Shown piece by piece: positions 3,373-51,344 of a stretch of 52,182 bases of DNA. The translations under genes were made by a program, and so were the position numbers. Source of the DNA: Rhodoblastus sphagnicola. GTDB taxonomy: Bacteria; Pseudomonadota; Alphaproteobacteria; Rhizobiales; Beijerinckiaceae. Below the pieces are notes generated by a model. It made no database searches and was not told where the DNA came from. It worked only from the letters and a program-made list of their open reading frames with translations. Position 1 is the first letter of the stretch. The number at the start of each line of letters is the position of its first letter. The stretch lies in assembly GCF_002937075.1 (NCBI RefSeq), contig NZ_NHSJ01000118.1, forward strand, positions 1 through 52,182, in the 5' to 3' direction.

Positions 3373-3551
3373 TTGCTCCTCGCTTGGCGCGAAGTCTTAG
3401 GGATTCGGCGTGGGAGGCGCAAGCGTCCGAGTCGATCTGTTCGAGGAAAGAGCCTGCGCCGCAATTGACTCGGTCAAGCCTGCCCTCTACCAACGATAGG
3501 CATTGCGGTGCGTGACCCCGCGCGCCGAACGGTGGAGCCACGGAGCGTTCG

Positions 3552-4118: not shown

Positions 4119-4140
4119 CCTGACTTTTTTGGAGTGATCG

Positions 4141-5013: not shown

Positions 5014-5023
5014 GGAGGGGGCG

Positions 5024-6085
5024 ATGCGGATTCTGGTGACGGGCGGCGCGGGTTTCATCGGTTCGGCGCTCTGCCGTTATCTGGTGGGCGAGGCCGGCGC
5101 AACGGTGCTCAACGTCGACAAGCTGACCTATGCGGGCAATCTGGCCTCATTGCGCGAGATCGCGCAAAATCCCAATTATCACTTCCTGCAAGCCGACATT
5201 TGCGATCGCGCCGCGCTGGATGCCGCCTTCGCGCAATTCCAGCCCGATGGCGTGATGCATCTGGCCGCCGAAAGCCATGTCGATCGCTCGATCACCGCCG
5301 CCGGCGACTTTGTCACCACCAATGTGGTCGGCAGCTTCACTTTGCTCGAAGCGGCGCGCGCCTATTGGAGCGCGCTCGCCCCGGAAAAACGCGACGCCTT
5401 CCGCTATCTCCACGTCTCGACCGACGAGGTCTACGGCTCGCTCGGGGCTGACGGCCTGTTCGAGGAGACCACGCCCTACGACCCCTCCTCGCCCTATTCG
5501 GCCTCCAAGGCGGCCTCGGACCACCTCGCCACCGCCTGGGGCCGCACCTATGGCCTGCCGGTGGTGATCTCGAACTGCTCGAACAATTACGGGCCGTATC
5601 ATTTCCCCGAAAAGCTGATTCCGCTGATCATCCTCAATGCGTTGCACGGCAAGCCGTTGCCGGTCTATGGCGACGGCTCCAACATCCGCGACTGGCTCTA
5701 TGTCGAGGACCACGCCCGCGCCCTGCTCACCATTTTGACGCGCGGGCGGCTTGGGGAAAAGTACAATGTCGGCGGCCGCAACGAGCGCCGCAACATTGAT
5801 ATCGTCCGGCGCGTCTGCGAAATCCTCGACCGCGAGCGCCCCATAGCGGAAAAGCGCGAAAAGCTGATCACCTACGTGACCGACCGCCCCGGCCACGACC
5901 ATCGCTACGCCATCAACGCCGACAAGCTCGAAACCGAACTCGGCTGGCGCGCCCGCGAGAACTTCGACAGCGGCATCGAGAAGACGGTGGCCTGGTACCT
6001 TGACAATGAATGGTGGTGGCGGCCGTTGCGCGACAAGGTTTATGCAGGCGAAAGGCTGGGCCTGGTCGCGGAGACCGCGCCATGA
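5024..6085 (+). CDS. rfbB: dTDP-glucose 4,6-dehydratase
   Basis: RfbB (RmlB) is an NAD-dependent extended short-chain dehydrogenase that removes water from dTDP-glucose. The product has 353 residues. The Rossmann motif TGGAGFIG spans residues 6-13. The catalytic block STDEVYG and the YxxxK pair (YSASK) follow, then [15 protein letters not shown] chose ATG 5024 because it follows GAGGAGGGGGCG and starts exactly at the Rossmann strand MRILVTGG; an in-frame ATG at 4973 lies inside rfbA. The stop overlaps the rfbD start (ATGA). Confidence 0.97.
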
Positions 6086-9991: not shown

Positions 9992-11221
9992 TCAGGCCAA
10001 AACAAGGGCGGCCGCGCTCAAACCCGAGCGTACAGCCCCTTCGATGGTCGAAGGCAGCCCGGTTTGGGTAAAATCGCCGGCGAGAAAAAGATTTTTCCAG
10101 TCCGTCGCCGGGCCGGGCCGCAGCGCGTCCTGCGCCGGCGTCGCGGCGAAGGTGGCGCGCTTTTCCTTGATGATTTGCCAGACCGGCAGCGGCGCCGAAA
10201 CGCCCGCGACCCGCTGAACCTCGTCCCAAATGCGCGAGGCGAGCTCCTCGCGCGGCGTGGCCAAAAACCGCTCGGCGGCGCTGATGGTCACCGAGAGCCG
10301 GTCGGGGAAAGCGAACACCCATTCGCTCCAGCCGCCGATCACGCCGGTGAGCAGCGGCATGTCCTTCGGCGCCGGGAAAGCGAAATGAGCGTTGACGATG
10401 GAGCGGAATTCATTTGGCGCGGACAGGCCCGGCAGCAGTTCCGCCGCAACCGGCGCCGTCACCGCCAGCACGACGCGATCTTCCGCATCCAGCGCGACGG
10501 TCTCCTCGCCAAAGTCCAGCGCCGCCACGCGCCCGCCCTCAAAGGCGAGACCGCGCAATTTGGCGCCGAATTTTACCCGCGCACCCTTCCCGCGCAAAAA
10601 ATCCAGCGCCGGATCGACGAAGGCGGCGGACAGGCCGTCCGCCACCACCGGACGGCAGGCGTCGCCGCCCCGTGCAAAAGTTTCGCGCACGATGGTCGCG
10701 GCCAACGTCGCCGACGCCTCCTCCGGCGCCGTGTTCAGCGCCGAGACGAAAATCGGGTCCCACAGCCGCCGCGCCATGTCGCCGGAGCCGAGGAACGGCC
10801 GCAGCGTCTGGCCGGGCTTGGCGAACAGCAGTTTTGCGAGCGCCATGTAATCCAGCCCCGCCGTGCCCGGCAGCCGGCGGTCGGGCATCAGAATCCACCA
10901 GGGCAGTTTTCCGGCGTTGGGGCGCAGCCGCCACCGCGTTTTCTGCTCCAGATCGCAAAAATCGAACCCGGCTTCCTCGGCGATGGACAGTTTGTCGGAA
11001 CCGCCGGTTTTTCGCGCGTAATCGAGCGATGCGGAATTGCCCGACAGCAGCAGATGATTGCCATTGTCGATGGTCATGCCGAGCGTCGCGTCGAAATAGG
11101 AGCGGCAGCGCCCGCCCGCCTGCGGCGCGGCCTCGTAAAGCGCGACCTCGAAGCGATCCGCCAGCTCCACCGCCGCCGACAGGCCGGCGAGGCCGGCGCC
11201 GATCACATGAACCCGCGCCAT
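9992..11221 (-). CDS. hpnE: Hydroxysqualene dehydroxylase HpnE
   Basis: HpnE is an FAD-dependent enzyme that converts hydroxysqualene to squalene, the last step of the HpnCDE route to squalene for hopanoid synthesis. The 409-residue protein opens with an FAD Rossmann motif (GAGLAGLSAAVEL, residues 8-20). It carries the amine-oxidase/phytoene-desaturase-like blocks GGRCRSY and GNHLLLSGN. The C-terminal GDFTQTGLPSTIEGA is the usual FAD-contacting end. It is last in hpnABCDE; its start overlaps the hpnD stop by one base (TGATG). No hpnF/shc follows. Confidence 0.93.
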   Translation of the reverse strand: MARVHVIGAGLAGLSAAVELADRFEVALYEAAPQAGGRCRSYFDATLGMTIDNGNHLLLSGNSASLDYARKTGGSDKLSIAEEAGFDFCDLEQKTRWRLRPNAGKLPWWILMPDRRLPGTAGLDYMALAKLLFAKPGQTLRPFLGSGDMARRLWDPIFVSALNTAPEEASATLAATIVRETFARGGDACRPVVADGLSAAFVDPALDFLRGKGARVKFGAKLRGLAFEGGRVAALDFGEETVALDAEDRVVLAVTAPVAAELLPGLSAPNEFRSIVNAHFAFPAPKDMPLLTGVIGGWSEWVFAFPDRLSVTISAAERFLATPREELASRIWDEVQRVAGVSAPLPVWQIIKEKRATFAATPAQDALRPGPATDWKNLFLAGDFTQTGLPSTIEGAVRSGLSAAALVLA

Positions 11222-12051
11222 CAGAACAGCCCGTAGCGCAGGAAGGCGCCGAGCACGGCCAGTTTCGGCGTCGCGATCTTTTCACGCGGCGCCTTGAAGC
11301 CCCTGTGGTCCAGCCGCCGCCAGATCGCGCGATAGGCCAGATACATGATTTTCGGCGCGCGGATTTCCGCGCGGGGACGCTCCACCATAATGGCGTTCGC
11401 CTGATCGAAATGGACCTTGGCCTGCGCCAGCAGCGGGCGACACACGGGGTCGAGATCGGGCCGCGCCACGACTTGTTCCGGCGTCGGGTCGGACACGCCC
11501 GCGCCCGAAAGAAGCTCGCGCGGCAGATAGAGCCGGCCGATGGCCGCGTCCTCGTCCACGTCGCGCAGGATGTTGGTGAGTTGCAGCGCGCGCCCGAGAT
11601 GATGGGCGAGTTCGATCCCCTGTTGCTCCGGCAGGCCGAACACCCGCACCGACAACCGCCCCACCGCGCTGGCGACGCGGTCGCAATAGAGATCGAGTGT
11701 TTCCGCGTCCGGCGCGACGATGTTCGCGTCGACATCCATCTGCATGCCGTCGATGACGGCGAGAAAATCCTCTTGCCTGAAACTGAAGTCGCGCAGCGGC
11801 GTGATCAGCCCCTCGGCCCGACCGGAATGGCCCCCCTCATAGAGCGCGGCGATGTCGCGGCGCCATAGGTCGAGCGCTTCGGTCTTTTCCTCGCGGGTTC
11901 CGCCGCCGTCGGCGATGTCGTCCACGGCGCGGCAGAACGAATAGATTTCGAACATGGCGTCGCGCTGCCCTTGCGGCAGGATCGCCATGGCCCGATAAAA
12001 CGAGCTGTTGCGCGCGGTTTCCCGCGCGGCCTCATGTGTCGCGAGGCTCAT
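11221..12051 (-). CDS. hpnD: Presqualene diphosphate synthase HpnD
   Basis: HpnD condenses two farnesyl diphosphates to presqualene diphosphate. The 276-residue product has both aspartate-rich motifs of the squalene/phytoene synthase family, AVDDIAD near residues 37-43 and LRDVDEDA in the second half, which bind the Mg-diphosphates. SFYRAMAILP is the family's N-terminal substrate block. I place the start at MSLATHEAARETAR (12051), because the in-frame extension upstream is Arg-rich and lies in hpnC. The start overlaps the hpnC stop by four bases. Confidence 0.93.
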   Translation of the reverse strand: MSLATHEAARETARNSSFYRAMAILPQGQRDAMFEIYSFCRAVDDIADGGGTREEKTEALDLWRRDIAALYEGGHSGRAEGLITPLRDFSFRQEDFLAVIDGMQMDVDANIVAPDAETLDLYCDRVASAVGRLSVRVFGLPEQQGIELAHHLGRALQLTNILRDVDEDAAIGRLYLPRELLSGAGVSDPTPEQVVARPDLDPVCRPLLAQAKVHFDQANAIMVERPRAEIRAPKIMYLAYRAIWRRLDHRGFKAPREKIATPKLAVLGAFLRYGLF

Positions 12052-12914
12052 GCGGCCCTCCGGAACAAGCGTGAAACCGCCTCGACGCCGACGGCGGCCG
12101 CGGCGCCGATAACCATCTCGCCCTTGTTGAGCTTCACCTTTTCGCACAAGGGATCGCGCGCCGTCAGCAGGTCCACGATGCTGAAGGCGTGGCGGACGAT
12201 CACCGCGATTTCCAGGCCAAGCCTGAAATCCTTGATCGCGGCGGTGAGATCCGCGCCGCGTTCGAGCAGCCCGCGGTTCTTCCACGCCAGGTTCTGAAGG
12301 CAGGACAGCAAGGCCGGCGAACTTTTGGCTTCCCCCAGATCCTCGATCCGCGCGCCCGCCGCATCAAGCGCGTCCCGGGGGATGTAAACGCGGTCGAGGG
12401 CTTTGAAATCCTTGGCGCAATCCTGCAAATGGTTGTTGATCTGCAAACCCGCGCAAATGTCGTCGGAGGCCGCCCACAGGCTCTGGCTCTCGCCGTGGAC
12501 GTCGAGCAGGAAGCGCCCGACAGGCATGGCCGACAGGCGACAATAAGCGATCAGATCATCCCAGTCGGCGTAACGATTCTTGTCCACGTCGAGGCGGAAC
12601 GCATCGAGCAGGTCGCGCGCGTGCTGGTCGGTGAGGTCGTGTTCGGCGAGTTTTACGCGCAACTTTACGCCAAGCGGCTCGGCCTCGCTCTTGCCGATCA
12701 GCGAATCCTCCATCTGGTCCAGCAAAGCGTGTTTTTGCGCCGGCGCCAGATCGGGATTGTCGGCGACATCGTCGCCGGAGCGCACGAAATCGTAAAAGGC
12801 GAGAATCACCGGGCGCAGACGTTCCGCGATCAGCCCCGAGGCGACCGGAAAATTCTCGTCCGCGCCGGTCTTGCCGGAACGCAGGCTTTCCGCCGTGACC
12901 GTGTCTTCGCTCAT
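12048..12914 (-). CDS. hpnC: Hydroxysqualene synthase HpnC
   Basis: HpnC, a homologue of squalene/phytoene synthase, turns presqualene diphosphate into hydroxysqualene. The 288-residue product carries the first motif as RSGDDVADNPDL and the second as HLQDCAKDFKALDRVYIP. The start MSEDTVTAESLRSGK at 12914 overlaps the hpnB stop, consistent with tight translational coupling. The N-terminal GKTGADENFPVAS block is typical of HpnC rather than HpnD and separates the two paralogues. Confidence 0.92.
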   Translation of the reverse strand: MSEDTVTAESLRSGKTGADENFPVASGLIAERLRPVILAFYDFVRSGDDVADNPDLAPAQKHALLDQMEDSLIGKSEAEPLGVKLRVKLAEHDLTDQHARDLLDAFRLDVDKNRYADWDDLIAYCRLSAMPVGRFLLDVHGESQSLWAASDDICAGLQINNHLQDCAKDFKALDRVYIPRDALDAAGARIEDLGEAKSSPALLSCLQNLAWKNRGLLERGADLTAAIKDFRLGLEIAVIVRHAFSIVDLLTARDPLCEKVKLNKGEMVIGAAAAVGVEAVSRLFRRAA

Positions 12915-39415: not shown

Positions 39416-40312
39416 CTACCGTCTCAACTGCCGCACCAGCGTCTCGCGCATCCAGGCGTGGCCCTCGTTGGTTTCGTGCCGCGCGCTCCAGTGCAGCCGC
39501 ACGTCGAAGTCCGGCAGATCGATCGGCAGCGGCAGGGCGCGCAGCCCATAGGTGCGCTCAAACCTCTGCGCCACGATGGACGGCAGGCTGACGAGATAGT
39601 CCGTCGCGGCGACCAAAGTGGGAACGCTGGTGAAATGCGGCACGCGCAGGCCGATTCTGCGCTGGATGTTGCGCTCCAGCAGGGCGTTCTCGACCATGTG
39701 GTGTCCGGTGAACGGCGACATCACCAGAATGTGCTTGGCCTCCTCGAAAACTTTTCGCGTGAGCGTGTCGCCGATCAGCGGATGCCCCGCGCGAAACAGG
39801 CAGACGTAGCGCTCGCGAAACACCACCTCATGCCGCGTGGTCGGCGTGATCTCCGGAAGGTTGCCAATGGCGAAATCCAGTTCGCCGATATCGAGCGCGC
39901 GCGAAAGATTCGCCATGGAGATTTGCGCGATTTCCAAGGAAACCCTTGGCGCCGCGGTTTCGAGGAGCGGCGCGATTTTCGGCAGGAAATCGAGCTGGCC
40001 GATGTCCGACATGGCCACGCGAAACGTGCGCTCCGATTGCGCCGGGTCGAACGCCGCCGGGCTGATGGCGGCGTCGAGAATGTCGATGCCGCGCCGCACC
40101 TCGCGATAGATGCGCGCGGCCTGCGGCGTCGGCGCCATGCCGTCGCGGGTGCGGGTGAAGATGGGATCGCCAAAAGTCTCGCGCAGCCGCGCCAGCGAAT
40201 AGCTGACCGATGGCTGGGTCACATTGAGGCTTTCCGCCGCGCGCGACACGCTGCGGGTTTCGAACACGGCGCAGAACACGCGCAGACATTGGAGATCGAT
40301 CGGAGACGACAT
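39416..40312 (-). CDS. LysR-type regulator, divergent from the pad operon
   Basis: This 298-residue regulator has the N-terminal LysR winged helix (LQCLRVFCAVFETRSVSRAA, NVTQPSVSYSLARLRE) and a two-lobed effector-binding domain (residues 95-298, FRVAMSDIGQLDFLPKI). The pad gene cluster starts 151 bases away on the other strand. LTTRs usually control their divergent neighbour and themselves; here the ligand would plausibly be phenylacetate, phenylacetyl-CoA or a similar aromatic, by inference. The known betaproteobacterial clusters are not described with this exact arrangement as far as I recall. Confidence 0.9.
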   Translation of the reverse strand: MSSPIDLQCLRVFCAVFETRSVSRAAESLNVTQPSVSYSLARLRETFGDPIFTRTRDGMAPTPQAARIYREVRRGIDILDAAISPAAFDPAQSERTFRVAMSDIGQLDFLPKIAPLLETAAPRVSLEIAQISMANLSRALDIGELDFAIGNLPEITPTTRHEVVFRERYVCLFRAGHPLIGDTLTRKVFEEAKHILVMSPFTGHHMVENALLERNIQRRIGLRVPHFTSVPTLVAATDYLVSLPSIVAQRFERTYGLRALPLPIDLPDFDVRLHWSARHETNEGHAWMRETLVRQLRR

Positions 40313-40346
40313 AGATACGGCTTATACTATAAATAGATACTATCTA
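40311..40346. promoter_or_regulatory. LysR-type operator between regulator and padB
   Basis: TAGATA-C-TATCTA (40334-40346) is a perfect palindrome matching the LTTR T-N11-A box. The octamer ATAGATAC occurs twice, at 40311-40318 (overlapping the lysR start codon) and 40333-40340, 22 bases apart, which is two helical turns. The whole stretch is AT-rich. This fits one activation/autorepression site pair. Confidence 0.65.
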
Positions 40347-40463
40347 ATTGATCTATATCATGGCCGCGGCGCCCCGACAAGGCGATAAGGGGAGGCTACC
40401 CGGGACCGCAGGACGCGAGCAAACGCGACCGCACAAAAAGTCCTGGGAGCGCAGGGAGGTTTC

Positions 40464-43211
40464 ATGAGCGCGCTGAAAGACGTGCGGCGATTTCCGTCGT
40501 TCTGTTACAATTGCGTGTCAGGCCCCGACTTTCTCCAGGTGAAGGTCGAGGACGGCGTCGCCGTCGAGGTCGAGCCCAATTTCAAAGCGGCGGACATTCA
40601 TCCCGGACGCGGGCGGCCCTGCGTGAAGGCCTATGGCCTCGTGCAAAAAACCTACAATCCCCACCGCATTCTCACGCCGATGAAGCGGACCAATCCCAAA
40701 AAGGGGATCAAGGAGAATCCCGGTTTCACGCCGATTTCGTGGGACGAGGCGTTCGACATCATCGCCGCGCGCCTCAACGCCATCAAGGCCAAGGGGCTGA
40801 TCGACGAATCCGGCGCGCCGCGTCTGGCCGCGAGTTTCGGTCATGGCGGCACGCCGGCGAACTACATGGGGTCGTTTCCGGCCTTTCTCGCGGCCTGGGG
40901 GCCGATCGATTATTCGTTCGGCTCGGGACAGGGGGTCAAATGCACCCATTCCGAGCACCTCTATGGCGAATTCTGGCATCGCGCCTTTACCGTGGCGGCG
41001 GATACGCCGCGCTGCAATTACCTCATCTCCTGCGGCGCCAACGTCGAAGTCACCGGCGGCCCGACGGCCGTGATCCGTCACGCCGACGCGCGGGTGCGCG
41101 GGTACAAGCGCGTGCATGTCGAGCCGCATCTGTCGATCACGGCGTCCTGCTCGGCCGAATGGGTTCCGATCCGCCCCAAAACCGATCCCGCCTTCCTGTT
41201 CGCCCTCATCCACGTCCTCGTCTGCGAGCACGGAACGCAAAAACTCGACCTCCCCTTCTTGCGCGACCGCACCGCCTCGCCCTATCTGATCGGTCCCGAC
41301 GGGTTTTATCTGCGCGACGCCGACAGCGAGAAACCGCTGGTGTTCGACACGGTCTCCGGATGCGCCGTCGCCCATGACGCCCCCGGCGCCGTCCCGGCGG
41401 TGGACGGCCGCTACAAGGTGTCGCGCGCCATCACCATAGGCCCGGACGGCGCGCGCGAGAATTTCGCCGACATCGAAGCGCCCACCGCGCATGAAACGCT
41501 GATCGAGCATATGGCCGGTTACTCGCCGGAATGGGCGGAGCAAATCTGCGATGTTCCCGCCAAAACCATCCGCCGCATCGCCAACGAATATCTCGAAGCC
41601 GCGACCATCGGCGCGACCATTGAAATCGACGGCCAAACCCTGCCGCTGCGTCCCGTCGCGGTCACATTGGGCAAGTCGGTCAATAACGGCTGGGGCGCCT
41701 ACGAGTGCTGCTGGGCGCGCACCGTGCTGGCGGCGCTGGTCGGCGCGCTGGAAAATCCCGGCGGCCTGCTCGGCACCACCCTGCGCATCAACAAGCCGCA
41801 GGACAACCGCCACAAGAGCGCGAAACCCGGCGAAGACGGGTTCATGGTCCAATATTTCAACCCGACCAGCGCGGAGGCGTGGGAGCACACGCCGACGACG
41901 CGCAACCTGCATCGCTCGCTGGTGCCGATTGTCGGCCGCAATGGCGGCTGGAGCCAGGCGCTCGGCCCGACGCAACTGGCGTGGCTGCTGTCGGAGAAGG
42001 TGCCCGACGACTGGAATTTTCCGCAACCCACCTATCCGGAACTCTGGTTCGTGTTCCGCTCGAACCCGGCCATTTCGTTCTGGCAGACGCGCGAACTCGC
42101 CGCGTCCATCGCCAAATTCCCGTTCATGGTCGCCTTCGCCTACACTTTGGACGAAACCAATGCCATGGCGGACATCCTGCTGCCGGATGCGACCGATTTC
42201 GAAACCAACCAGCTCATCAAAATCTCCAACACCAAATATATGGAGCATTTCTGGCGGCACACCGGCGTGGTGTTGCGCGCCAAGGCGGTCGAGCCACAAG
42301 GGGACGCGCGGGATTTTTCCTGGATTTCGGGAGAACTCGCCCGCCGCGTCGGGCTTTTGGAAAAATATGTCACGCAATTGAACCGCGGCGTCGGCGGCGT
42401 CGCGCCGCTCAAGAGCGAAACCTACGATTTCAGCCTAGATCCCGCTGTCGCGCCCAAACCCGAGGAGATCTGGGACGCCGCCTGCAAGGCCGCCACCGCC
42501 GCGCTATCGGGGGGCACGGCCTGTCACGGCCTCGACTGGTTCCGCGAGCACGGGTTTTGGGCCACGCCCATGTCCGAACTCGAATGGTATCTCACCCCGA
42601 CGCTGGCGCAACAGGGTTTGAGATACGAGCTGCCCTATCAGGAACGGCTGATGCGCGTCGGCCAGGAACTCGGCAACCGCCTGCATGAAAAGAACATGCG
42701 CTGGTGGGACGAGCAGCTCGCCGAATATGTCGCTTTGCCCGGCTGGCATGACATCCCCGGACGCTGGACGCGCGCGCTCGAAAACGCCGGATGCGCGCCC
42801 GAAAACTTCCCGTTCTGGCTGCTTTCGACCAAGAGCATGCAATATCATTCCGGCGGCAACGCCGGCATCGCGCTGATGGACGAGGTGTCGCAAAACCTGC
42901 ACGGCCACACCGGCGTGATGATGAACGCCGACACGGCGGCGAAACTCGGCATAGCGGAAGGGGATCGCGTCGAGGTGCGTTCGCAGATCGGCGCGACCTA
43001 CGGACGCGCCGCGCTGATGCAGGGCGTGCGCCCCGACACGATCGTGATCCTCGGCCAGTTCGACCATTGGGCGACGCCCTACATCAAGGACCAGGAGCGC
43101 GCCAGCCTCAACACCATCGCGCCCATGTCGATCGAGCTGACCGACGCCACCGGCTCCGGCGCCGACATCGTGCGCGTCGCCGTGCGGCGCATGGAAAGAG
43201 CGGCGCCATGA
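40464..43211 (+). CDS. padB: Phenylacetyl-CoA:acceptor oxidoreductase, molybdenum catalytic subunit
   Basis: This 915-residue molybdopterin oxidoreductase of the DMSO-reductase superfamily oxidises phenylacetyl-CoA to phenylglyoxylate with PadC and PadD. Family blocks are FTPISWDEAFDIIAARL near the start, FPFMVAFAYTLDETNAMADI mid-protein, and the C-terminal cofactor domain GHTGVMMNADTAAKLGIAEG. The N-terminal cluster motif is unusual: Cys14-x2-Cys17, then Cys53, with no cysteine at the expected third place (Pro21/Asp22). There is no Tat signal, so it acts in the cytoplasm. GGAGG precedes the ATG. Assignment as PadB rests mainly on the gene order B to J. Confidence 0.85.
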   Translation: MSALKDVRRFPSFCYNCVSGPDFLQVKVEDGVAVEVEPNFKAADIHPGRGRPCVKAYGLVQKTYNPHRILTPMKRTNPKKGIKENPGFTPISWDEAFDIIAARLNAIKAKGLIDESGAPRLAASFGHGGTPANYMGSFPAFLAAWGPIDYSFGSGQGVKCTHSEHLYGEFWHRAFTVAADTPRCNYLISCGANVEVTGGPTAVIRHADARVRGYKRVHVEPHLSITASCSAEWVPIRPKTDPAFLFALIHVLVCEHGTQKLDLPFLRDRTASPYLIGPDGFYLRDADSEKPLVFDTVSGCAVAHDAPGAVPAVDGRYKVSRAITIGPDGARENFADIEAPTAHETLIEHMAGYSPEWAEQICDVPAKTIRRIANEYLEAATIGATIEIDGQTLPLRPVAVTLGKSVNNGWGAYECCWARTVLAALVGALENPGGLLGTTLRINKPQDNRHKSAKPGEDGFMVQYFNPTSAEAWEHTPTTRNLHRSLVPIVGRNGGWSQALGPTQLAWLLSEKVPDDWNFPQPTYPELWFVFRSNPAISFWQTRELAASIAKFPFMVAFAYTLDETNAMADILLPDATDFETNQLIKISNTKYMEHFWRHTGVVLRAKAVEPQGDARDFSWISGELARRVGLLEKYVTQLNRGVGGVAPLKSETYDFSLDPAVAPKPEEIWDAACKAATAALSGGTACHGLDWFREHGFWATPMSELEWYLTPTLAQQGLRYELPYQERLMRVGQELGNRLHEKNMRWWDEQLAEYVALPGWHDIPGRWTRALENAGCAPENFPFWLLSTKSMQYHSGGNAGIALMDEVSQNLHGHTGVMMNADTAAKLGIAEGDRVEVRSQIGATYGRAALMQGVRPDTIVILGQFDHWATPYIKDQERASLNTIAPMSIELTDATGSGADIVRVAVRRMERAAP

Positions 43212-43861
43212 GCAAGCGCTATGGAATGGTCATCGACCTGCGCCGCTGCGTCGGCTGCCAGACCTGCACGGCGGCCTGCAAGAGCGCCAACGCCACGCCG
43301 CCCGGCGTGCAATGGCGCCGCGTGCTCGACATGGAGAGCGGCTCCTATCCGGACGCGCGCCGCGCCTTCGTTCCGGTCGGCTGCAATCATTGCGACGAGC
43401 CGCCCTGCAAGGCGGTCTGCCCGACCACGGCCACCGACCAGAGCGCGGACGGCCTCGTCACCATCGACTATGACCTGTGCATCGGCTGCGCCAATTGCAT
43501 CATGGCCTGCCCCTATGACGCGCGCTCCATCGAGCATGAGCCGCGCTACGCCTATGGCGTGGCGATGGCATCGGAGGCCGCGCGGTTCGATCCCAAGCGG
43601 CTCGGCGTCGCCACCAAATGCACGTTCTGCAAGGAGCGGGTCGAAGCCGCCGCAACCAGCGGCAAAACGCCCGGCCTCGATCCCGAGGCGACCCCGGCCT
43701 GCGTCAATTCCTGCATTTCCGCCGCCATGTCGTTTGGCGATCTCCGCGACCCCGACAGCCCCGTGTCAAAACTGCTGGCCGAAACGCGGCATTGGCGCCT
43801 GCACGAGGATTTGGGCGCGGGCCCCTCGGTCTATTACATCTGGGAAGGGGCCGAGCCATGA
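43208..43861 (+). CDS. padC: Phenylacetyl-CoA:acceptor oxidoreductase, iron-sulfur subunit
   Basis: This 217-residue DmsB/NrfC-like ferredoxin subunit carries electrons from the molybdenum subunit to the membrane anchor. It has four cysteine clusters: CVGCQTCTAAC, CNHCDEPPCKAVCP, CIGCANCIMACP and the pair CTFC...CVNSC, which together bind four [4Fe-4S] centres. Start and stop overlap padB and padD by four bases each (ATGA). It has no signal peptide, like PadB. Confidence 0.88.
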   Translation: MSKRYGMVIDLRRCVGCQTCTAACKSANATPPGVQWRRVLDMESGSYPDARRAFVPVGCNHCDEPPCKAVCPTTATDQSADGLVTIDYDLCIGCANCIMACPYDARSIEHEPRYAYGVAMASEAARFDPKRLGVATKCTFCKERVEAAATSGKTPGLDPEATPACVNSCISAAMSFGDLRDPDSPVSKLLAETRHWRLHEDLGAGPSVYYIWEGAEP

Positions 43862-44736
43862 GCGCGCGCGCGAAAATTCACGATCGCGTCGCGCCGCGCC
43901 AGCAAACCAACTGGGACGCGCGCGCCGCCGCCAATTTCATTTGTGGCGGCGCCGGCGGCAGCTTGATGCTGGCGACCGGCGTGGCCGCGACGATGAGCGA
44001 CGACGATCTGCGTCCATTGGCGATCGTCGCGCTGGCGCTGGTCGGCCTCGGCCTCAACGCCGTGTTCTTCGAAATCGGCCGTCCCTCGCGCGCGCTAAAC
44101 GTGTTCAGGCATGTCTCGACATCGTGGATGACGCGCGAAGCGTGGATTGCGCTTGTGCTGTTTTGCGTCGGCGGCGCGGCGCTGTTGCTGAAGTCTGCCC
44201 CGATGCTGCTCGCCGCCGGCGGCATCGGCCTCGGCTTCGTTTTTGCGCAGGGCCGAATGCTCGAAGCCAACAAGGGCATCGCCGCGTTCCGGCAAAAGAC
44301 CACCGTCGCCCTGATCGTCTCGACCGGTCTGGCCGAAGGTTTTGGCCTGCTGACGGTCGCCAGCCTGCACTGGCCGGCGTTGCGCGTTTTCTCCGTTGCG
44401 CTCGCCGCGCTGCTCGCCGTCCGCTTCCTGGTGTGGCGCGCCTATATCGGCGCCCTGCGCGAAGGCAACACCCCGGCGGGCGCGTTGAAGGCTTTTGCGG
44501 CCATCGCGCCGCTGTTCGTGTGGGCGGGTCATTTCGCGCCCATCGTTCTCGCCCTGACCGCGTCGCTGGACGACGCCGGCTGGCTGGCGGCGCCGGCGGG
44601 CGCGCTGGCCGCCGTCACGGGCGCGGCGCTCAAACACACGCTGATCTGCCGCGCCGCCTTCACCCAAGGGTTTGTCTTGCCAAAAAACCCGAGGCGCGGC
44701 GGCGCGCCGAAACTCACGAAAATCCAGGACAATTAA
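43858..44736 (+). CDS. padD: Phenylacetyl-CoA:acceptor oxidoreductase, membrane anchor
   Basis: This 292-residue integral membrane protein of the DmsC/NrfD type has about eight hydrophobic segments (for example 50-68, 96-112, 118-133, 190-206). It would anchor PadBC and pass electrons to quinone. Typical marks are FEIGRPSRALNVFRH and WMTREAW near residues 68-95. It starts at the ATG overlapping padC. After its stop comes a 150-base gap holding a double-hairpin repeat, the only sizeable gap between padB and padI. Confidence 0.85.
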   Translation: MSARAKIHDRVAPRQQTNWDARAAANFICGGAGGSLMLATGVAATMSDDDLRPLAIVALALVGLGLNAVFFEIGRPSRALNVFRHVSTSWMTREAWIALVLFCVGGAALLLKSAPMLLAAGGIGLGFVFAQGRMLEANKGIAAFRQKTTVALIVSTGLAEGFGLLTVASLHWPALRVFSVALAALLAVRFLVWRAYIGALREGNTPAGALKAFAAIAPLFVWAGHFAPIVLALTASLDDAGWLAAPAGALAAVTGAALKHTLICRAAFTQGFVLPKNPRRGGAPKLTKIQDN

Positions 44737-44783
44737 GGCGATGCGGCGAAAAGACTGACTCCATCCCGACACGAACCGGGGAC

Positions 44784-44843
44784 TTCCTTCTCCCCTTGCG
44801 GGAGAAGGTGGCTCGCGGCGAAGCCGCGAGACGGATGAGGGGG
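44784..44843 (+). repeat. Dispersed double-hairpin repeat inside the pad operon (copy 2 of 2)
   Basis: Hairpin 1 is CCTTCTCCC (44786-44794) with GGGAGAAGG (44800-44808). Hairpin 2 is CTCGCGGC (44812-44819) with GCCGCGAG (44823-44830) around GAA. ACGGATGAGGGGG follows. The framework is shared with 430-476. It separates the Mo-enzyme genes padBCD from the phenylglyoxylate dehydrogenase genes padEFGHI, where it could attenuate read-through or protect one mRNA segment. Confidence 0.8.
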
Positions 44844-44886
44844 TCGCAGCGCCGTCGCCGAACGAAACATCATGGGGGGAGAAGCG

Positions 44887-45456
44887 ATGTACGAGGTGCG
44901 TCTTCACGGCCGGGGCGGACAGGGCGCGGTGATGGCGGCGACCATGCTCGCCTCCGGCGTCGTCGCGGAAGGACGGTTCGCGGTCGCCATTCCCTCGTTC
45001 GGCTTCGAGCGGCGCGGCGCGCCTGTCGCCGCTTTCGTGCGGATCGACGACCGCGAAATCCGTCGCATGACCAACATCACCCATCCCGATTGCGTCATGT
45101 GCATCGACCCGACGCTGTCGCGCTCGGTCGATATTTTCGCCGGCCTCAAACCCGGCGGCGCGCTGGTCCAGGCGACCGAAAAACCGCTGTCCGACCTCGT
45201 CACGCCCGAGACGGTCGCGGTCGTCGGCGTGATCGACGCCGTGCGCATCGCGCTGGACATTTTCGGTCGCCCGATCACCAACACGCTGATGCTCGGCGCG
45301 CTGGCCCGCGCCACCGGCCTCGTGACGCTCGAAGGTTTGAAACGCGCGCTGGCCCATTCCGAGTTTCGCGACGCCGGCCTGCGCCAGAATCTCATCGCCC
45401 TGGAACGCGGTTTTCACGAAACGGCGGTCCAAAAGCTCAAGCAGGCGGCGGCATGA
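44887..45456 (+). CDS. padE: Phenylglyoxylate:acceptor oxidoreductase, gamma subunit
   Basis: This 189-residue protein is a gamma-type subunit of the pyruvate/2-ketoacid oxidoreductase superfamily (YEVRLHGRGGQGAVMAATML is the diagnostic start). In phenylglyoxylate dehydrogenase it forms part of the core that converts phenylglyoxylate, CoA and acceptor to benzoyl-CoA and CO2. I choose ATG 44887, which follows GGGGGAGAAGCG, over an in-frame ATG five codons upstream. It overlaps padF by four bases. Confidence 0.88.
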   Translation: MYEVRLHGRGGQGAVMAATMLASGVVAEGRFAVAIPSFGFERRGAPVAAFVRIDDREIRRMTNITHPDCVMCIDPTLSRSVDIFAGLKPGGALVQATEKPLSDLVTPETVAVVGVIDAVRIALDIFGRPITNTLMLGALARATGLVTLEGLKRALAHSEFRDAGLRQNLIALERGFHETAVQKLKQAAA

Positions 45457-45755
45457 CCAATCATCGCGCCTACCCGATGTTCGATCCGGCGAAAGCCGGC
45501 GCGCCCGACGATCTCTGTCCCATCGCGACGGTGATCAATCCGATGCTGCCGGGCGACTGGCGCAGCCTGCGGCCTCTGGTTGACCGCGACAAATGCGTCA
45601 AATGCGCGGTGTGCTGGCTGTATTGCCCGGTGCAATGCATCGTTGAAAAACCGGCCTGGTTCGACGCGGATCTGCGCACCTGCAAGGGCTGCGGCATCTG
45701 CGCGACGGAATGCCCGCATCGCGCGATAGCCATGGTGATGGAGACGACAGGATGA
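45453..45755 (+). CDS. padF: Phenylglyoxylate:acceptor oxidoreductase, delta (ferredoxin) subunit
   Basis: This 100-residue protein has two [4Fe-4S] ferredoxin motifs, CVKCAVCWLYCPVQC (residues ~50-64) and CKGCGICATECPHRA (~77-91), as in delta subunits of four-subunit ketoacid oxidoreductases. It passes electrons from the thiamine-diphosphate site onward. It overlaps padE and padG by four bases each. Confidence 0.88.
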   Translation: MTNHRAYPMFDPAKAGAPDDLCPIATVINPMLPGDWRSLRPLVDRDKCVKCAVCWLYCPVQCIVEKPAWFDADLRTCKGCGICATECPHRAIAMVMETTG

Positions 45756-46996
45756 CCGCCGCGATGCTGGACCCATGCGTGACAAAGAACGCGCCGGAAT
45801 ATCTGGTCTGCGAGGGCAATGAGGCGGCGGCGCTGGCGGTGGCGCTGGCGCGGCCGGACATGGTGTCGGTCTATCCGATCACCCCGCAGTCGAGTCTGGT
45901 CGAGCATCTGGCGAAACTGGTCGCCGATGGCCGCATGGATGCGGAAATCGTGGACGCCGAGGGCGAGCATTCCGTTCTGTCGGTGCTGCAAGGCGCAGCG
46001 CTGGCGGGCGGGCGGACGTTCACGGCCACCTGCGGCCCCGGCCTCGCTTTCATGTTCGAGCCTTATTTCCGCACGCCCGGCCTGCGCCTGCCGATTGTGA
46101 TGGCGCTGGTAACGCGCGACGGCCTGACGCCCCAATCGGTCTGGGGCGGCCACCAGGACGCCATGACCGTCCGCGAGGTCGGCTGGGTGCAGATGTATTG
46201 CGAGTCGGTTCAGGAGGTTCTGGACACCACGCTGATGGCGTTCAAAATCGCGGAACACCGCGACGTGATGCTGCCGGTCAACATCTGTCTCGACGGCAAT
46301 TACCTTTCCTATGGCGCGGCGCGCGTCACCTTGCCGGCGCAGGCCGACGTGGACGCCTTTTTGGGCGAGAAGGACGTCAACTGGCACGCCGCGCTCGATC
46401 CGCAAAAACCGATGGCGATCGATCCGCTCACCGGCGGCGCGGGCGGCAAGGGTCCGGCGACTTTCGTGCGCTACCGAAAGGGCCAATGCGCGGGCATGCA
46501 GAACGCGCTGCGGGTGATTTGCGAAACCCACGACGCCTATGCGCAAAAATTTGGCCGACGTTTCGCGCCGCTGGTCGAAGAATATCGCATGGCCGACGCC
46601 GAATTCGCCTTGCTGACGCTCGGCGGCATGACCGGCGCCGCCAAGGACGCGGTGGACGAGGCGCGCGACGCCGGCAAGCGCGTCGGCCTCATCAAGATCA
46701 AGACGTTCAGCCCGTTTCCGGTCGAAGCTTTATGCGCGGCGCTGCGGGGGATCAAGGCGCTCGGCGTGGTCGATCGCTCCGTCGCCTTCCGCTGGAATTG
46801 CGGGCCGATGTTCCAGGAAACGCTCGGCGCCCTCTACCGGCTCGGCCGTCCGCTTCCCGCCGCCAGTTTCATTGGCGGCCTCGCCGGCGCCGACATCACT
46901 GTGGAGCATTTCCATCGCGTCATCGAACAGACCGAAGCCCTTCTGCACGGCGCCGCGCCGAAAAACGGCCCGATCTGGATCAACGAGAACGATTGA
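45752..46996 (+). CDS. padG: Phenylglyoxylate:acceptor oxidoreductase, alpha subunit
   Basis: This 414-residue alpha subunit belongs to the pyruvate:ferredoxin oxidoreductase superfamily. VYPITPQSSLVEHLA (residues ~42-56) and the downstream EGEHSVLSVLQGAALAGGRT are the usual pyrimidine-binding/transketolase-like blocks. It pairs with PadI to form the catalytic centre. The start MTAAMLDPCV overlaps the padF stop. padH follows seven bases after the stop. Confidence 0.88.
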   Translation: MTAAMLDPCVTKNAPEYLVCEGNEAAALAVALARPDMVSVYPITPQSSLVEHLAKLVADGRMDAEIVDAEGEHSVLSVLQGAALAGGRTFTATCGPGLAFMFEPYFRTPGLRLPIVMALVTRDGLTPQSVWGGHQDAMTVREVGWVQMYCESVQEVLDTTLMAFKIAEHRDVMLPVNICLDGNYLSYGAARVTLPAQADVDAFLGEKDVNWHAALDPQKPMAIDPLTGGAGGKGPATFVRYRKGQCAGMQNALRVICETHDAYAQKFGRRFAPLVEEYRMADAEFALLTLGGMTGAAKDAVDEARDAGKRVGLIKIKTFSPFPVEALCAALRGIKALGVVDRSVAFRWNCGPMFQETLGALYRLGRPLPAASFIGGLAGADITVEHFHRVIEQTEALLHGAAPKNGPIWINEND

Positions 46997-47003
46997 GGTT
47001 GTC

Positions 47004-48251
47004 ATGCCCCACGCCCACTATCTCGTTGTCGGCGGCAGCCATGCGGCGCTCGAGGCGGTCAACGCCATCCGCATGTGCGACGCGGACAACAACGTGACGC
47101 TGCTCACGCGCGACCGCCGGCCGCCCTATTCGCCGACGGCCCTGCCCTATGTCGTCTCCGGTCGCGCGTCGCCGGAAAAACTCGTCTTGCGCACGCAAGA
47201 CGACTTCGCGCGCCAGCGCGTCGATTATCGCGCCGGCGCCGAACTGGCGCGCATAAATCCCGAGCGCAAAGTGGCGGTGCTGTCGGACGGCGCCGAAATC
47301 GCCTTCGAGAAACTCCTGCTCGCGACGGGGGCGTCGCCGGCGATCCCGCCGATTCCCGGCGTCGAAACCGTTCCCTATCACGTGCTGCGCACGATGGACG
47401 ACGCGCTGCGGCTGAAACAGGCCATCGCCAAAGCGCGCCGCGCCGTGGTTCTGGGCGCGGGGCTGGTCGGCATGCACGCCGCCGAGCATCTGGTCGAGGC
47501 CGGCGCCGAGGTCGCCATCGTCGAAATGCAAGAACAGGTGCTCGGCGCCTGTTTCGACGCCGCCGCCGCCGCCCACATCGAACGCGCCTTTGTCGCCCAC
47601 GGCGCGCGCGTCCTCACGGGACGGCGCGTCATCGGCCTGGCGCGGCGCGGGACTGCGACAGACGTGCGACTGGACGACGGCCAGACGCTGGAAGCCGACC
47701 TGCTGCTGGTGGCGACGGGCGTAAAACCCAATATGGATTTTCTTGCCGGCAGCGGCGTCGCGCGGGATCGCGGCATTCTCGTTGACGACGCCATGCGCAC
47801 CAATGTGAAGGACATTTGGGCGGCGGGCGATTGCGCGCAGGCCAAAAATTTCCATGGCGGCGGCCCCGTGATCAACGCCATCCTGCCCGTCGCGGCGGAG
47901 CAAGGCCGCATCGCCGGGATGGCCATGGCGGGCGATCCCGGCCTGAAACCCTATCCCGGAAGCGCGCCGCTCAACACCTACCGCTTCTTCGGCCGTCACG
48001 CGCTCGCCGTGGGCGCCGGCGACGTTCCCCCCGGCGGCGCGCAACGCGTCCGCGCCGATGACGCCGGCTATCTGCGCGTGGTGATCGAAAACGGGTGTTT
48101 GCGCGGCATTTTCAGCGTCAACCACTTCTTTGACGCGGGCGTGATGCGCGAACTGATCCTGCGGCGCGTCCCAATCTCCGACGCGCTCGATCGTCTGGTC
48201 GCCGACCCGCTGACGACCGGCCGCGAATTCATGTCTCGCTTGTGGAAATGA
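47004..48251 (+). CDS. padH: Phenylglyoxylate dehydrogenase-associated NAD(P) flavoprotein
   Basis: This 415-residue pyridine-nucleotide-disulfide-type oxidoreductase has an FAD motif (VVGGSHAALEAVNAIR), ATGASPAIPPIPG, an NAD-binding fold (VVLGAGLVGMHAAEHL) and the second FAD contact DIWAAGDCAQ. It has no redox disulfide. In Azoarcus the five-subunit phenylglyoxylate dehydrogenase reduces NAD+, and this flavoprotein provides the NAD site. Its TGA overlaps the next start (ATGA). Confidence 0.85.
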   Translation: MPHAHYLVVGGSHAALEAVNAIRMCDADNNVTLLTRDRRPPYSPTALPYVVSGRASPEKLVLRTQDDFARQRVDYRAGAELARINPERKVAVLSDGAEIAFEKLLLATGASPAIPPIPGVETVPYHVLRTMDDALRLKQAIAKARRAVVLGAGLVGMHAAEHLVEAGAEVAIVEMQEQVLGACFDAAAAAHIERAFVAHGARVLTGRRVIGLARRGTATDVRLDDGQTLEADLLLVATGVKPNMDFLAGSGVARDRGILVDDAMRTNVKDIWAAGDCAQAKNFHGGGPVINAILPVAAEQGRIAGMAMAGDPGLKPYPGSAPLNTYRFFGRHALAVGAGDVPPGGAQRVRADDAGYLRVVIENGCLRGIFSVNHFFDAGVMRELILRRVPISDALDRLVADPLTTGREFMSRLWK

Positions 48252-49558
48252 CCATGCGCGCTTACGAAACCCTCGCCTTCGACGCCGGCAAATGCGACGG
48301 CTGCGGCCAATGCGCGACCGCCTGCGCGCAAGAAAAAACGCAGGCGCGCCTGAACATCCTGCCGTCCGGCGCGGGGTTCGCCCTGGCGCTGTGTCGCCAA
48401 TGCGGCGATCCCAAATGCGTCAGCGTTTGTCCGGCCGGCGCGCTGGCCAAAAACGCCGAAACCGGCGTGATCGGCTGGGACGCCGACAGATGCGTGGACT
48501 GCCTGCTCTGCACCGTCGGTTGCGCCTATGCCGGCATTGCGCCCGATGCGACCGGCCGCGTCGCCAAATGCGACATGTGCGCCGGCGACCCCGCCTGCGC
48601 CAAAACCTGTCCGACCGGCGCGCTCACACACATCACCAGCGCGCGCATCTACAACGAGGTCGGCGACTGGGAGGATTTGTTCGCCGAAGGGCTCAGCGGC
48701 TGCCAGGGCTGCAACACCGAACTGTTGATGCGCCACGCCCTGCGCAGGGTCGGCCCCGACACGGTGCTGGCGACGCCGCCGGGCTGCGTTCCCGGCATGG
48801 GTGCGGTCGGCTTCAACGGCCTGACGGGAACCAAGGTCCCGGTGTTTCATCCGCTGCTGACCAACACGGCCGCCATGCTGGCGGGCGTAAAGCGCCAGCT
48901 GGCGCGAAAGGGACGCGAGGTCACGGCGATGGCCCTGGCCGGCGACGGCGGCGCCTCCGACGTCGGCTTTCAATCGCTGTCCGGCGCGGCCGAGCGCGGC
49001 GAAAACATCCTGTTCCTGGTGGTGGACAACGAGGGCTACATGAACACGGGCATGCAGCGCTCCAGCTGCACGCCCTACGGCGCCTGGACCTCGACGACGC
49101 CGGTCGGGCGCCAGGGCAAGGGCAAGACGCAGGACGCCAAGAACCTGCCGCTGCTGATGGTCAACCACCGCTGCGCCTATGTCGCGACGGCCTCGACCGC
49201 CTTCATGGAGGATTTCTACGCCAAGCTCGACAAGGCCATCGTCGCGTCCAAAACCGGCTTCGCCTATCTGCATGTCTATTCGCCCTGCACGACGGGCTGG
49301 CGCTTTCCCCCGGAAAAAAACATCGAGGTGGCGCGCAAGGCGGTCGAGAGCAATTTCGTCATGCTGTGGGAGTTTTCCCCGCGCGCGGGCCTGCGGTTCA
49401 CGCATTCGGTCGAGGCCCCGCTGCCGGTCGCCGACTATCTCAAGGCGATGGGCCGGTTCCGCCATCTCAACGAGGACCAGATCTTACACATTCAGAAAAA
49501 AGTCGAGGAGAACCGCGCGCTGGTCGAGCAACTCGCGACGCGCTCCAGCGCGGCCTGA
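48248..49558 (+). CDS. padI: Phenylglyoxylate:acceptor oxidoreductase, beta subunit fused to ferredoxin domain
   Basis: The 436-residue product is bipartite. Residues 1-150 form a HycB/DmsB-like polyferredoxin (CDGCGQCATACAQ, CRQCGDPKCVSVCP, CVDCLLCTVGC, CDMCAGDPACAKTCP). Residues 160-436 are the thiamine-diphosphate beta subunit, with GCNTELLMRHAL, the Mg/ThDP motif GDGGASDVGFQSL and VVDNEGYMNTGMQRSS. The start may be ATG 48248 (overlapping padH) or ATG 48254. The fused N-terminal polyferredoxin fits the multi-cluster phenylglyoxylate enzyme and departs from simple four-subunit ketoacid oxidoreductases. Confidence 0.86.
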   Translation: MTMRAYETLAFDAGKCDGCGQCATACAQEKTQARLNILPSGAGFALALCRQCGDPKCVSVCPAGALAKNAETGVIGWDADRCVDCLLCTVGCAYAGIAPDATGRVAKCDMCAGDPACAKTCPTGALTHITSARIYNEVGDWEDLFAEGLSGCQGCNTELLMRHALRRVGPDTVLATPPGCVPGMGAVGFNGLTGTKVPVFHPLLTNTAAMLAGVKRQLARKGREVTAMALAGDGGASDVGFQSLSGAAERGENILFLVVDNEGYMNTGMQRSSCTPYGAWTSTTPVGRQGKGKTQDAKNLPLLMVNHRCAYVATASTAFMEDFYAKLDKAIVASKTGFAYLHVYSPCTTGWRFPPEKNIEVARKAVESNFVMLWEFSPRAGLRFTHSVEAPLPVADYLKAMGRFRHLNEDQILHIQKKVEENRALVEQLATRSSAA

Positions 49559-49598
49559 GCGCCCAAAGAGGCGCAGGGCGAACAAGGGGGAGGCAAAC

Positions 49599-50903
49599 AT
49601 GGGATACACGCCATCGGAAATCGCGTCGGCCGATTTCGGCAGTCGCGGCGAGTTGCGCGATCTGCAATTGCGGCGTCTCAAGGCGACGCTGCGCCATGCC
49701 TATGACAACGTGCCGCATTACCGGGAAAAATTCCAGAAGGCCGCCGTTGCGCCCGACGATCTCCAGTCGCTGGCCGATCTGAACAAATTTCCGTTCACCA
49801 CCAAGGCCGATCTGCGCGACACCTATCCGTTCGGCATGTTCGCCACGCCGATGCGCGATGTCGTGCGCATCCACGCCTCCTCCGGCACGACCGGAAAACC
49901 GACGGTGGTCGGCTACACCCAGCGCGACATTGCGATGTGGGCGCAGGTGCTGGCCCGCTCGATGCGCGCGGCCGGCCTCACCGCCGACGACATTGTCTTG
50001 AACGCCTTCGGCTATGGCCTGTTCACCGGCGGCATCGGGTTCCACTACGGCGCCGAATGTCTCGGCGCGACGGTCATTCCGATTTCGGGCGGCCAGACCG
50101 AGAAACAGGTCCAGTTGATTCAGGATCTGAAAGCGACCGTGCTGCTGTGCACGCCGTCCTATGCGCTCACCATCGCCGACGAGATGGCGCGCCAGAACGT
50201 GGATGCGAAAAACACCAGCCTGCGCATCGGCCTGTTCGGCGCCGAGCCCTGGACCAACCAAATGCGCCGGGAAATCGAAACCCGCCTCGGCCTCGACGCT
50301 TACGACACCTATGGCCTGTCCGAGGTGATCGGCCCCGGCGTCGCCTCGGAATCGCGCGAGTGCAGGGATGGCCCGCAGATCTGGGAGGATCATTTTTACC
50401 CCGAGATCATCGACCCCGTCAGCGGCGAGGTCTTGCCCGACGGCGCCGACGGCGAACTGGTGTTCACCTCGCTGACCAAGGAGGCGCTGCCGATCATCCG
50501 CTATCGCACCCGCGATTTGACGCGGCTGTCGCCGGGCAAGGGCGCGATGCGGCGCATGGACAAGATCACCGGGCGGTCCGACGACATGCTGATCATCCGC
50601 GGCGTGAATCTGTTCCCGACGCAGATCGAGGAAATCGTGCTGAAACACGCCACCCTGTCGGGGCATTACCAGCTCCACGTCACCCGCGAGGGGCGGATGG
50701 ACGAACTCACCGTGCTGGTCGAAGTCAAGCCCGAACTGTCCGACGCCGACCCGGATTGGCGCGAAGCGATCGGGCGCGAGGTCGCCCACGACATCAAATC
50801 GCAGATCGGCGTCAGCGCCAAGGTCGCCGTGCTGGAAACGGATTCGATCGAGCGCACCCTGGTCGGCAAGGCCAGGCGCGTCATCGACAAGCGCCCGCAA
50901 TGA
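49599..50903 (+). CDS. padJ: Phenylacetate-CoA ligase
   Basis: This 434-residue adenylate-forming enzyme activates phenylacetate with ATP and CoA, the entry step of the pathway encoded upstream. The AMP-binding motif is HASSGTTGKPTVVGYT (residues ~90-105). YDTYGLSEVIGPGVASE, LPIIRYRTRDLT and the C-terminal GRSDDMLIIRGVNLFPTQIE are PaaK/PadJ-type blocks, and Lys near the end is in LVGKARRV. The length matches the family. AAGGGGGAGGCAAAC precedes the ATG. The aerobic PaaK has the same domain plan; the pad context favours the anaerobic isoenzyme. Confidence 0.92.
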   Translation: MGYTPSEIASADFGSRGELRDLQLRRLKATLRHAYDNVPHYREKFQKAAVAPDDLQSLADLNKFPFTTKADLRDTYPFGMFATPMRDVVRIHASSGTTGKPTVVGYTQRDIAMWAQVLARSMRAAGLTADDIVLNAFGYGLFTGGIGFHYGAECLGATVIPISGGQTEKQVQLIQDLKATVLLCTPSYALTIADEMARQNVDAKNTSLRIGLFGAEPWTNQMRREIETRLGLDAYDTYGLSEVIGPGVASESRECRDGPQIWEDHFYPEIIDPVSGEVLPDGADGELVFTSLTKEALPIIRYRTRDLTRLSPGKGAMRRMDKITGRSDDMLIIRGVNLFPTQIEEIVLKHATLSGHYQLHVTREGRMDELTVLVEVKPELSDADPDWREAIGREVAHDIKSQIGVSAKVAVLETDSIERTLVGKARRVIDKRPQ

Positions 50904-50921
50904 TTTTCACAGGAGAGCGTC

Positions 50922-51344
50922 ATGAAGAACACCATTGTCGTGGGACAGTCGGCGACGCGCCGGATCGAGATCGACACGCCGCGCACCATCGATTTTCTGG
51001 GAGAAGCTCTGCGCGTCTACGCCACGCCGGAACTGGCGCGCGATTTCGAGATCGTCTGCCGCGATTTTCTGCTCGGCCATGCCGACGCCAACGAAGATTC
51101 GGTGGGAACGGGAATCCGCATTTCCCACGGCGGCGCCACCTTGCGCGGCATGCAGGTCGAGATCACGGCGACGGTCGCGAAGATCGAGGGGCGTCTGGTC
51201 ACCTTCGATCTCGTGGCCAACGATTCGATTGAAGAAATCAGCCGCGGCAGCCACAGCCGATTCGTCGTGGACGTCGAGAAATTGCGCGCGAAGGTGGCGG
51301 CGAAAGCGGCAAGCCTCGGGGAGACGCAGGCCGCGACTCCGTAG
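50922..51344 (+). CDS. FlK-like hotdog thioesterase at the end of the pad operon
   Basis: The 140-residue product resembles the fluoroacetyl-CoA thioesterase (FlK) type of hotdog protein: ALRVYATPELARDFEIVCRD, SVGTGIRISHGGATLRGMQV (holding the catalytic Thr/His region) and VTFDLVANDSIEEISRGSHSR. AGGAG precedes its ATG, 18 bases after padJ. It may hydrolyse dead-end aromatic acyl-CoAs or recycle CoA when the pathway stalls; this is inferred from position. Its stop directly abuts the stop of a convergent gene. Confidence 0.75.
   Translation: MKNTIVVGQSATRRIEIDTPRTIDFLGEALRVYATPELARDFEIVCRDFLLGHADANEDSVGTGIRISHGGATLRGMQVEITATVAKIEGRLVTFDLVANDSIEEISRGSHSRFVVDVEKLRAKVAAKAASLGETQAATP

Follow-up and report, generated by a model that had tools for sequence, protein, structure and literature searches.

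The 52,182-nucleotide contig of Rhodoblastus sphagnicola analysed here over its whole length (the window; contig C118, from a genome of 5.09 Mb and 99.26% completeness) very probably carries a complete anaerobic phenylacetate-to-benzoyl-CoA operon, padBCDEFGHIJ, in an alphaproteobacterium with photosynthesis genes, as judged from its sequence. We found that the operon ends with a further gene, which encodes a hot-dog thioesterase of the FlK family (hereafter T). In all likelihood T is a working part of the pad pathway. More tentatively, T may act on the product of PadBCD, phenylglyoxylyl-CoA, and release its CoA. For the explanation as a whole, which joins operon, pathway and thioesterase step, our confidence is moderate.

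The pad operon and the rest of the route

According to PMC5109826, A. evansii, A. aromaticum and Thauera aromatica are the organisms for which the Pad pathway has been demonstrated. In the window, padB to padJ lie in collinear order on the plus strand at 40464-50903 (Table 1). Each protein from PadE to PadJ scores above its curated NCBIfam cut-off, and the equivalogs for phenylglyoxylate dehydrogenase (PGDH) cover 5/5 subunits. Because the five PGDH subunits exceed equivalog cut-offs in collinear order, a chance origin is excluded, and the complete operon proposed by the first-pass annotation is confirmed. For PadBCD no NCBIfam equivalog scored above cut-off; dedicated PadBCD models are absent from NCBIfam. 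The window PadB shares 70-71% identity with its counterparts at four Aromatoleum/Azoarcus loci (L053, L054, L055 and L074), all of which also have the order BCDEFGHIJ, as the annotation had asserted. Its statement that nearly all junctions are 4-base overlaps was too strong: such overlaps occur at 5/8 B-to-J junctions (B/C, C/D, E/F, F/G and H/I), and the remaining three junctions have gaps of 150 (D/E), 7 (G/H) and 40 (I/J) bases. Its gene list was right for padB-J and missed the thioesterase, even though the end it gave, 51344, is the stop of T. The T gene starts 18 bases past padJ, with AGGAG upstream of the start. All eleven frames (a LysR-type regulator, padB-J and T) are open.

Model scores rule out a reading of the catalytic subunits as indolepyruvate or thiosulfate enzymes. 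PadE reaches 333 bits with the PGDH model versus less than 30 bits with the indolepyruvate model, PadG 772 versus 24, and PadB scores 167.8 with the PhsA model (cut-off 694). The earlier assignment to the phenylacetate/phenylglyoxylate group therefore stands. The annotation had also stated that a benzoyl-CoA reductase would be needed outside the window, and bcrC, B, A and D (class I benzoyl-CoA reductase) are indeed present above cut-off on one other contig of the same genome. Genes for a ferredoxin, an Rrf2-type regulator and a protein of the benzoate-CoA ligase family lie near them. A third BcrAD_BadFG match (G000:C104:3850-4626, L003) lies away from this cluster. Two genes of the reaction-centre family PF00124 score above cut-off in the genome; the PaaA/PaaC family of the aerobic pathway gave no match there. 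Given the downstream bcr route and the reaction-centre genes, phototrophic growth is plausible.

FdhD transfers sulfur to the molybdenum cofactor. The source genome has an FdhD gene on a different contig, and none lies in the window. Our data suggest that PadB, like formate dehydrogenase, depends on FdhD. Among the best 80 padB loci from a scan of named genomes, on which all named-locus counts given here rest, fdhD matches lie inside 56/80 of the fetched stretches.

By homology, PadJ would make phenylacetyl-CoA, and membrane-bound PadBCD would oxidise its alpha carbon and pass the electrons to quinone, which we take to be the acceptor. T may then free CoA from phenylglyoxylyl-CoA. PadEFGHI, again by homology, would convert phenylglyoxylate to benzoyl-CoA by oxidative decarboxylation with reduction of NAD, and the class I benzoyl-CoA reductase, whose genes lie on the other contig, would attack the aromatic ring. 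The full anaerobic phenylacetate route would in this way be joined to genes for ring reduction in an alphaproteobacterium with photosynthesis genes and without a PaaA/PaaC match.

Linkage, fold and proposed step of the thioesterase

We compared the occurrence of T and PadB in a sample of 385 alphaproteobacterial genomes (PadB threshold E <= 1e-50, window genome counted). T is present at E <= 1e-8 in 42/385 genomes, namely in 18/19 with PadB and in 24/366 without (Fisher p 1.7e-18). With the stricter threshold of E <= 1e-25 the counts are 18/19 versus 6/366 (Fisher p 7e-25). Since the genomes are related by descent, these p values overstate independence. T immediately precedes padB, in the same orientation, in 13/18 class genomes, with ~20-200 bases between the matches; it stands at the operon end in the window and on a separate contig in 4/18.

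A similar linkage is found in the named loci. T lies inside the fetched stretch in 36/80 padB loci (core clade 26/47, other clades 9/15 and 1/18). When the comparison is restricted to the 32 loci that combine padB with padG and padI, T is linked in 30: inside the fetched stretch in 25, just beyond its end in the four Aromatoleum/Azoarcus loci (with an acyl-CoA synthetase gene between padJ and T) and 19 bases beyond it in L057. The two unlinked cases are L042, with no match in the genome, and L099, where a different contig carries T next to a second padB. We also searched 40 padB genomes whole, in two sets of which 14/20 and 20/20 had shown no T in the fetched stretch, and found T at E <= 1e-30 in 34 (19/20 and 15/20). 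In L088, L092 and L093 T heads a row that runs from padE to padJ and then from padB to padD. An acyl-CoA synthetase gene (Succ_CoA_lig, CoA_binding_2; L178 2275-4359) is pad-linked in 24/47 core loci and in 0/33 others. A T relative on a Variovorax plasmid (L197 7001-7411) bears the name of a LysR family transcriptional regulator in its annotation, probably by mistake.

T does not simply follow PGDH. Nineteen other genomes were picked because padE-I had not been seen near padB; a PadI match at E <= 1e-60 was found in 9/19 (partial and weak in G949) and none in 10/19. T is kept in 8/10 of the genomes without a PadI match and is in this sense independent of PGDH. Genomes in which T adjoins pad genes belong to the Alpha-, Beta- and Gammaproteobacteria, and some of them gave no PGDH match. 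At L034, L035 and L036 and in genomes G944, G945 and G936, near relatives of the window PadB come with padBCD, and PadI gave no match in the genome at the same threshold. At L034, 2-oxoacid:acceptor oxidoreductase genes lie nearby (2886-5809) and might replace PGDH.

The predicted fold of T (pLDDT 93) has FlK as its best match in the Protein Data Bank (PDB), with a TM score of 0.82 by query length. T positions 35, 43, 69 and 113 are in register with FlK Thr42, Glu50, His76 and Arg120. These Thr, Glu, His and Arg positions are invariant in a 17-row T alignment; across 114 T loci (same-gene duplicates included), Thr and Glu are found in 114/114 and His and Arg in 113/113 copies that cover them. 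The Glu, His and Arg presumably have catalytic roles in FlK, and Thr42 appears in the titles of PDB mutant entries. Ordinary FlK relatives have the same residues, so they indicate competence and not specificity. The position of FlK Phe36, which we take to be a gate typical of the fluoroacetyl-CoA enzyme, is Ala29 in T and is variable in relatives, mostly Asp or Glu. As this gate is absent, we do not call T a fluoroacetyl-CoA thioesterase. In the T tree 80 rows split from 10 ordinary FlK relatives, on few columns and with many forks unresolved.

The substrate of FlK is an activated acyl-CoA with a substituent on the alpha carbon, which fits phenylglyoxylyl-CoA, an alpha-keto thioester. Formation of phenylglyoxylyl-CoA followed by its hydrolysis is described for the pathway in the available part of PMC9765128, and a thioesterase is counted among the pathway enzymes, with no gene given, in that of PMC13416013. 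In the open-licence literature, as far as these texts are available, we found no gene named for the role. Since T is linked to genes flanking the step, resembles FlK, and the (partly available) papers state both the hydrolysis and a thioesterase, a phenylglyoxylyl-CoA thioesterase is the simplest reading of T. It is also possible, at a likelihood just short of even, that T is a general component of anaerobic arylacetyl-CoA alpha-oxidation, which would hydrolyse arylglyoxylyl-CoA, pull PadBCD forward and hand arylglyoxylate to PadEFGHI.

The main alternative is that PadBCD hydrolyses its own product and T serves in salvage, freeing CoA from piled-up phenylacetyl-CoA, benzoyl-CoA or dead-end esters, a role that PaaI plays in the aerobic phenylacetate pathway. 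We regard this as possible but somewhat less likely. Relatives of T are indeed found in other acyl-CoA contexts that lack PadB (partly judged by eye), and T in Aromatoleum follows an acyl-CoA synthetase gene, which agrees with salvage. However, salvage predicts looser linkage than is found. T keeps close to the genes that flank the proposed step: it immediately precedes padB in the 13/18 genomes mentioned above and padE in four other loci (L150, L153, L160 and L190), and its retention in genomes without a PGDH match also speaks against salvage.

Several observations weigh against phenylglyoxylyl-CoA hydrolysis by T, or against the pathway of which it would be part. Rhee and Fuchs are said to have found in 1999 that purified PadBCD preparations also hydrolysed phenylglyoxylyl-CoA; a separate thioesterase may therefore be unneeded, which favours salvage. 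In the second set of padB genomes searched whole, 5/20 have no T match at E <= 1e-8. Within the window's own PadB clade, the L044 genome holds only a weak T match, and the best T copies of AGun1 (L036, L078) reach 54% and 42%. The family also occurs without PadB, in the 24/366 and 6/366 class genomes given above, and a Variovorax relative lies near CoA transferase and enoyl-CoA hydratase genes. The neighbour of T is not always padB: besides the four loci with padE, T lies beside a padJ-like gene in three genomes (L154, L156 and L189), a point that salvage would also explain. Many of the genomes compared are metagenome-assembled genomes. Finally, the predicted PadB structure is poor (pLDDT 64.9) and too weak for a metal-ligand test. 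PadB Cys160 is invariant (14/14), but it does not fall on the PsrA Cys in the profile alignment, and the PadB model has pLDDT <50 there; the reference in this comparison is what we take to be the Mo-ligating Cys of PsrA-type enzymes.

Distribution, history and substrate

PadB occurs in 19/385 genomes and 13/277 genera of the class sample; one of these matches (G251) is weak, 38% identical over half the length. The alphaproteobacterial setting described by the first-pass annotation is thus real but not exceptional, the distribution being patchy instead. In the family sample PadB was found in 5/199 genomes and 2/43 genera, the window's included, and in the phylum sample in 3/398 genomes. There was no PadB match in the 9 other listed genomes of the window's genus.

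In the PadB tree (109 rows, quick search, midpoint root) the window falls within an alphaproteobacterial clade of 11 rows (support 97), in which two row pairs are the same gene twice. This clade adjoins a Sulfuritalea-type branch inside a 52-row clade (support 100) that also holds Aromatoleum, so the window PadB groups with Aromatoleum PadB in the comparison that had been proposed. Direct transfer from Aromatoleum is unsupported, as Aromatoleum stands outside the branch that joins the window clade with Sulfuritalea-type PadB. In the PGDH tree (33 rows) the window pairs with Rhodoplanes serenus (support 98), and their branch lies beside, not inside, the main betaproteobacterial branch of 22 rows, with the single betaproteobacterial rows L047 and L058 around it. 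Overall, the pattern in these trees reads as old, patchy inheritance with some between-class transfer, in one direction or the other.

It is highly improbable that the operon is a recent betaproteobacterial acquisition on a mobile element and perhaps silent. The patchiness described above, within the family and in the window's genus, and the joining of alphaproteobacterial with Rhodocyclales-type PadB in the tree would suit such an origin. However, the identity of PadB to its nearest relatives does not exceed 80%, and its clade includes other alphaproteobacteria, which argues that any transfer was old. The open frames do not suggest a silent operon, and 72,556 plasmid records gave only two PadB matches, both distant (27% and 25% identical), which speaks against plasmid carriage.

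The substrate could also differ. Genes resembling 4-hydroxybenzoyl-CoA reductase lie near PadB in 7/18 and 6/15 loci of two other clades (L081, L082, L083, L086, L088, L092, L095, L099, L104, L106, L109, L112 and L113 are the loci involved), versus 1/47 in the window's clade. Family scores were taken for L082 and L104 only: in L082 the alpha and beta subunits are above cut-off and gamma scores 257.4 versus 257.8, and in L104 alpha is above cut-off. In 16/18 loci of one of these clades no padC/padD match was found at the thresholds used; several of them are on short contigs. This gene context suggests 4-hydroxyphenylacetyl-CoA as the substrate in the two other clades and phenylacetyl-CoA in the window's clade. 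Although such neighbours would suit an operon for 4-hydroxyphenylacetate or another arylacetate, we consider this improbable for the window: its own clade nearly lacks them, PadE-I exceed the PGDH cut-offs and PadJ that of phenylacetate-CoA ligase, and the gene order is that of Aromatoleum.

Surroundings of the operon and comparison with known systems

A LysR-type regulator gene lies upstream of padB in divergent orientation and, from its position, probably controls the operon. Its relatives are few and weak (24-33%, in 2/80 named loci), so the regulator is probably local to this lineage. The intergenic stretch contains a single T-N11-A dyad, a pattern picked for the search after the dyad was noticed; at least one such dyad was present in 53/2000 shuffles, and for this reason the candidate LysR box is kept as marginal only. 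A promoter-like match spans 40334-40361, in a region that holds 3 such matches versus 1.3 expected. The hairpin repeat in the padD/padE gap has at least 55 further genome matches, mostly to this part of the gap, and several copies form opposed pairs less than 100 bases apart. The whole gap folds with a z of -2.41. Elsewhere in the window (9992-12285) a squalene/phytoene-synthase-like gene adjoins an amine-oxidase-like gene, a pair that we take to resemble hopanoid clusters.

Table 1. Coordinates and assignments of the operon genes and of the elements next to them (positions in the window).
Feature	Position	Strand	Assignment and support
LysR-type regulator	39416..40312	-	divergent from padB; Pfam HTH_1, LysR_substrate
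T-N11-A inverted repeat	40334..40346	.	possible LysR box and/or overlapping promoter; single dyad
padB	40464..43211	+	Mo subunit, phenylacetyl-CoA:acceptor oxidoreductase, 915 aa; Pfam Molybdopterin, Molydop_binding; tree
padC	43208..43861	+	iron-sulfur subunit, 217 aa; 4Fe-4S families; 68-72% to Aromatoleum/Azoarcus loci
padD	43858..44736	+	membrane anchor, 292 aa; Pfam DmsC barely above cut-off; several hydrophobic stretches; 42-46% to Aromatoleum/Azoarcus loci
Dispersed hairpin repeat	44785..44843	.	~60 bases, padD/padE gap; genome-wide matches
padE	44887..45456	+	PGDH gamma; NF045762, 333.2 bits (cut-off 300)
padF	45453..45755	+	PGDH delta (ferredoxin); NF045763, 160.2 bits (cut-off 150)
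padG	45752..46996	+	PGDH alpha; NF045764, 772.4 bits (cut-off 700)
padH	47004..48251	+	PGDH flavoprotein (NAD-linked); NF045765, 702.5 bits (cut-off 475)
padI	48248..49558	+	PGDH beta, N-terminal Fe-S clusters; NF045766, 831.7 bits (cut-off 700); Fer4 families, TPP_enzyme_C
padJ	49599..50903	+	phenylacetate-CoA ligase; TIGR02155, 669.4 bits (cut-off 646.3)
T	50922..51344	+	FlK-family hot-dog thioesterase, 140 residues, last operon gene; Pfam FlK, 90.7 bits (cut-off 27)

The operon itself is of a known type; what is added is the thioesterase, which is also present in Aromatoleum and makes the hydrolysis step testable. T offers a specific gene for phenylglyoxylyl-CoA hydrolysis, a step that the two recent papers cited above, in the parts available, write without a gene name.

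The Aromatoleum/Azoarcus loci have the same gene order and subunits as the window (PadG 76-77%, PadI 74-76% identical) and, like it, a thioesterase of the same family downstream on the same strand. They differ at both ends: an acyl-CoA synthetase gene separates padJ from the thioesterase, which in the window follows padJ directly, and upstream they have a PaaX-type regulator and, in most cases, fdhD, whereas the window has a LysR-type regulator and fdhD is on another contig. The closest full operon among the named loci is that of Rhodoplanes serenus DSM 18633 (L037), with 75% identity for PadB, 83% for PadG, 77% for PadI and 77% for the thioesterase. Unlike in the window, the Rhodoplanes thioesterase gene is divergent and lies upstream of padB, with fdhD adjoining.

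FlK (PDB 3p3f and 3kx8, presumably from Streptomyces cattleya) shares its fold and the register of Thr, Glu, His and Arg with T, but the two are only ~30% identical, and Phe36, mutated in a PDB entry titled F36A, is Ala in T. A parallel in function would be PglD, a thioesterase of phenylglycine biosynthesis to which the available part of PMC7089894 assigns CoA cleavage from benzoylformyl-CoA (that is, phenylglyoxylyl-CoA). The reaction is the one proposed here for T, although PglD is a biosynthetic enzyme and comes from Streptomyces.

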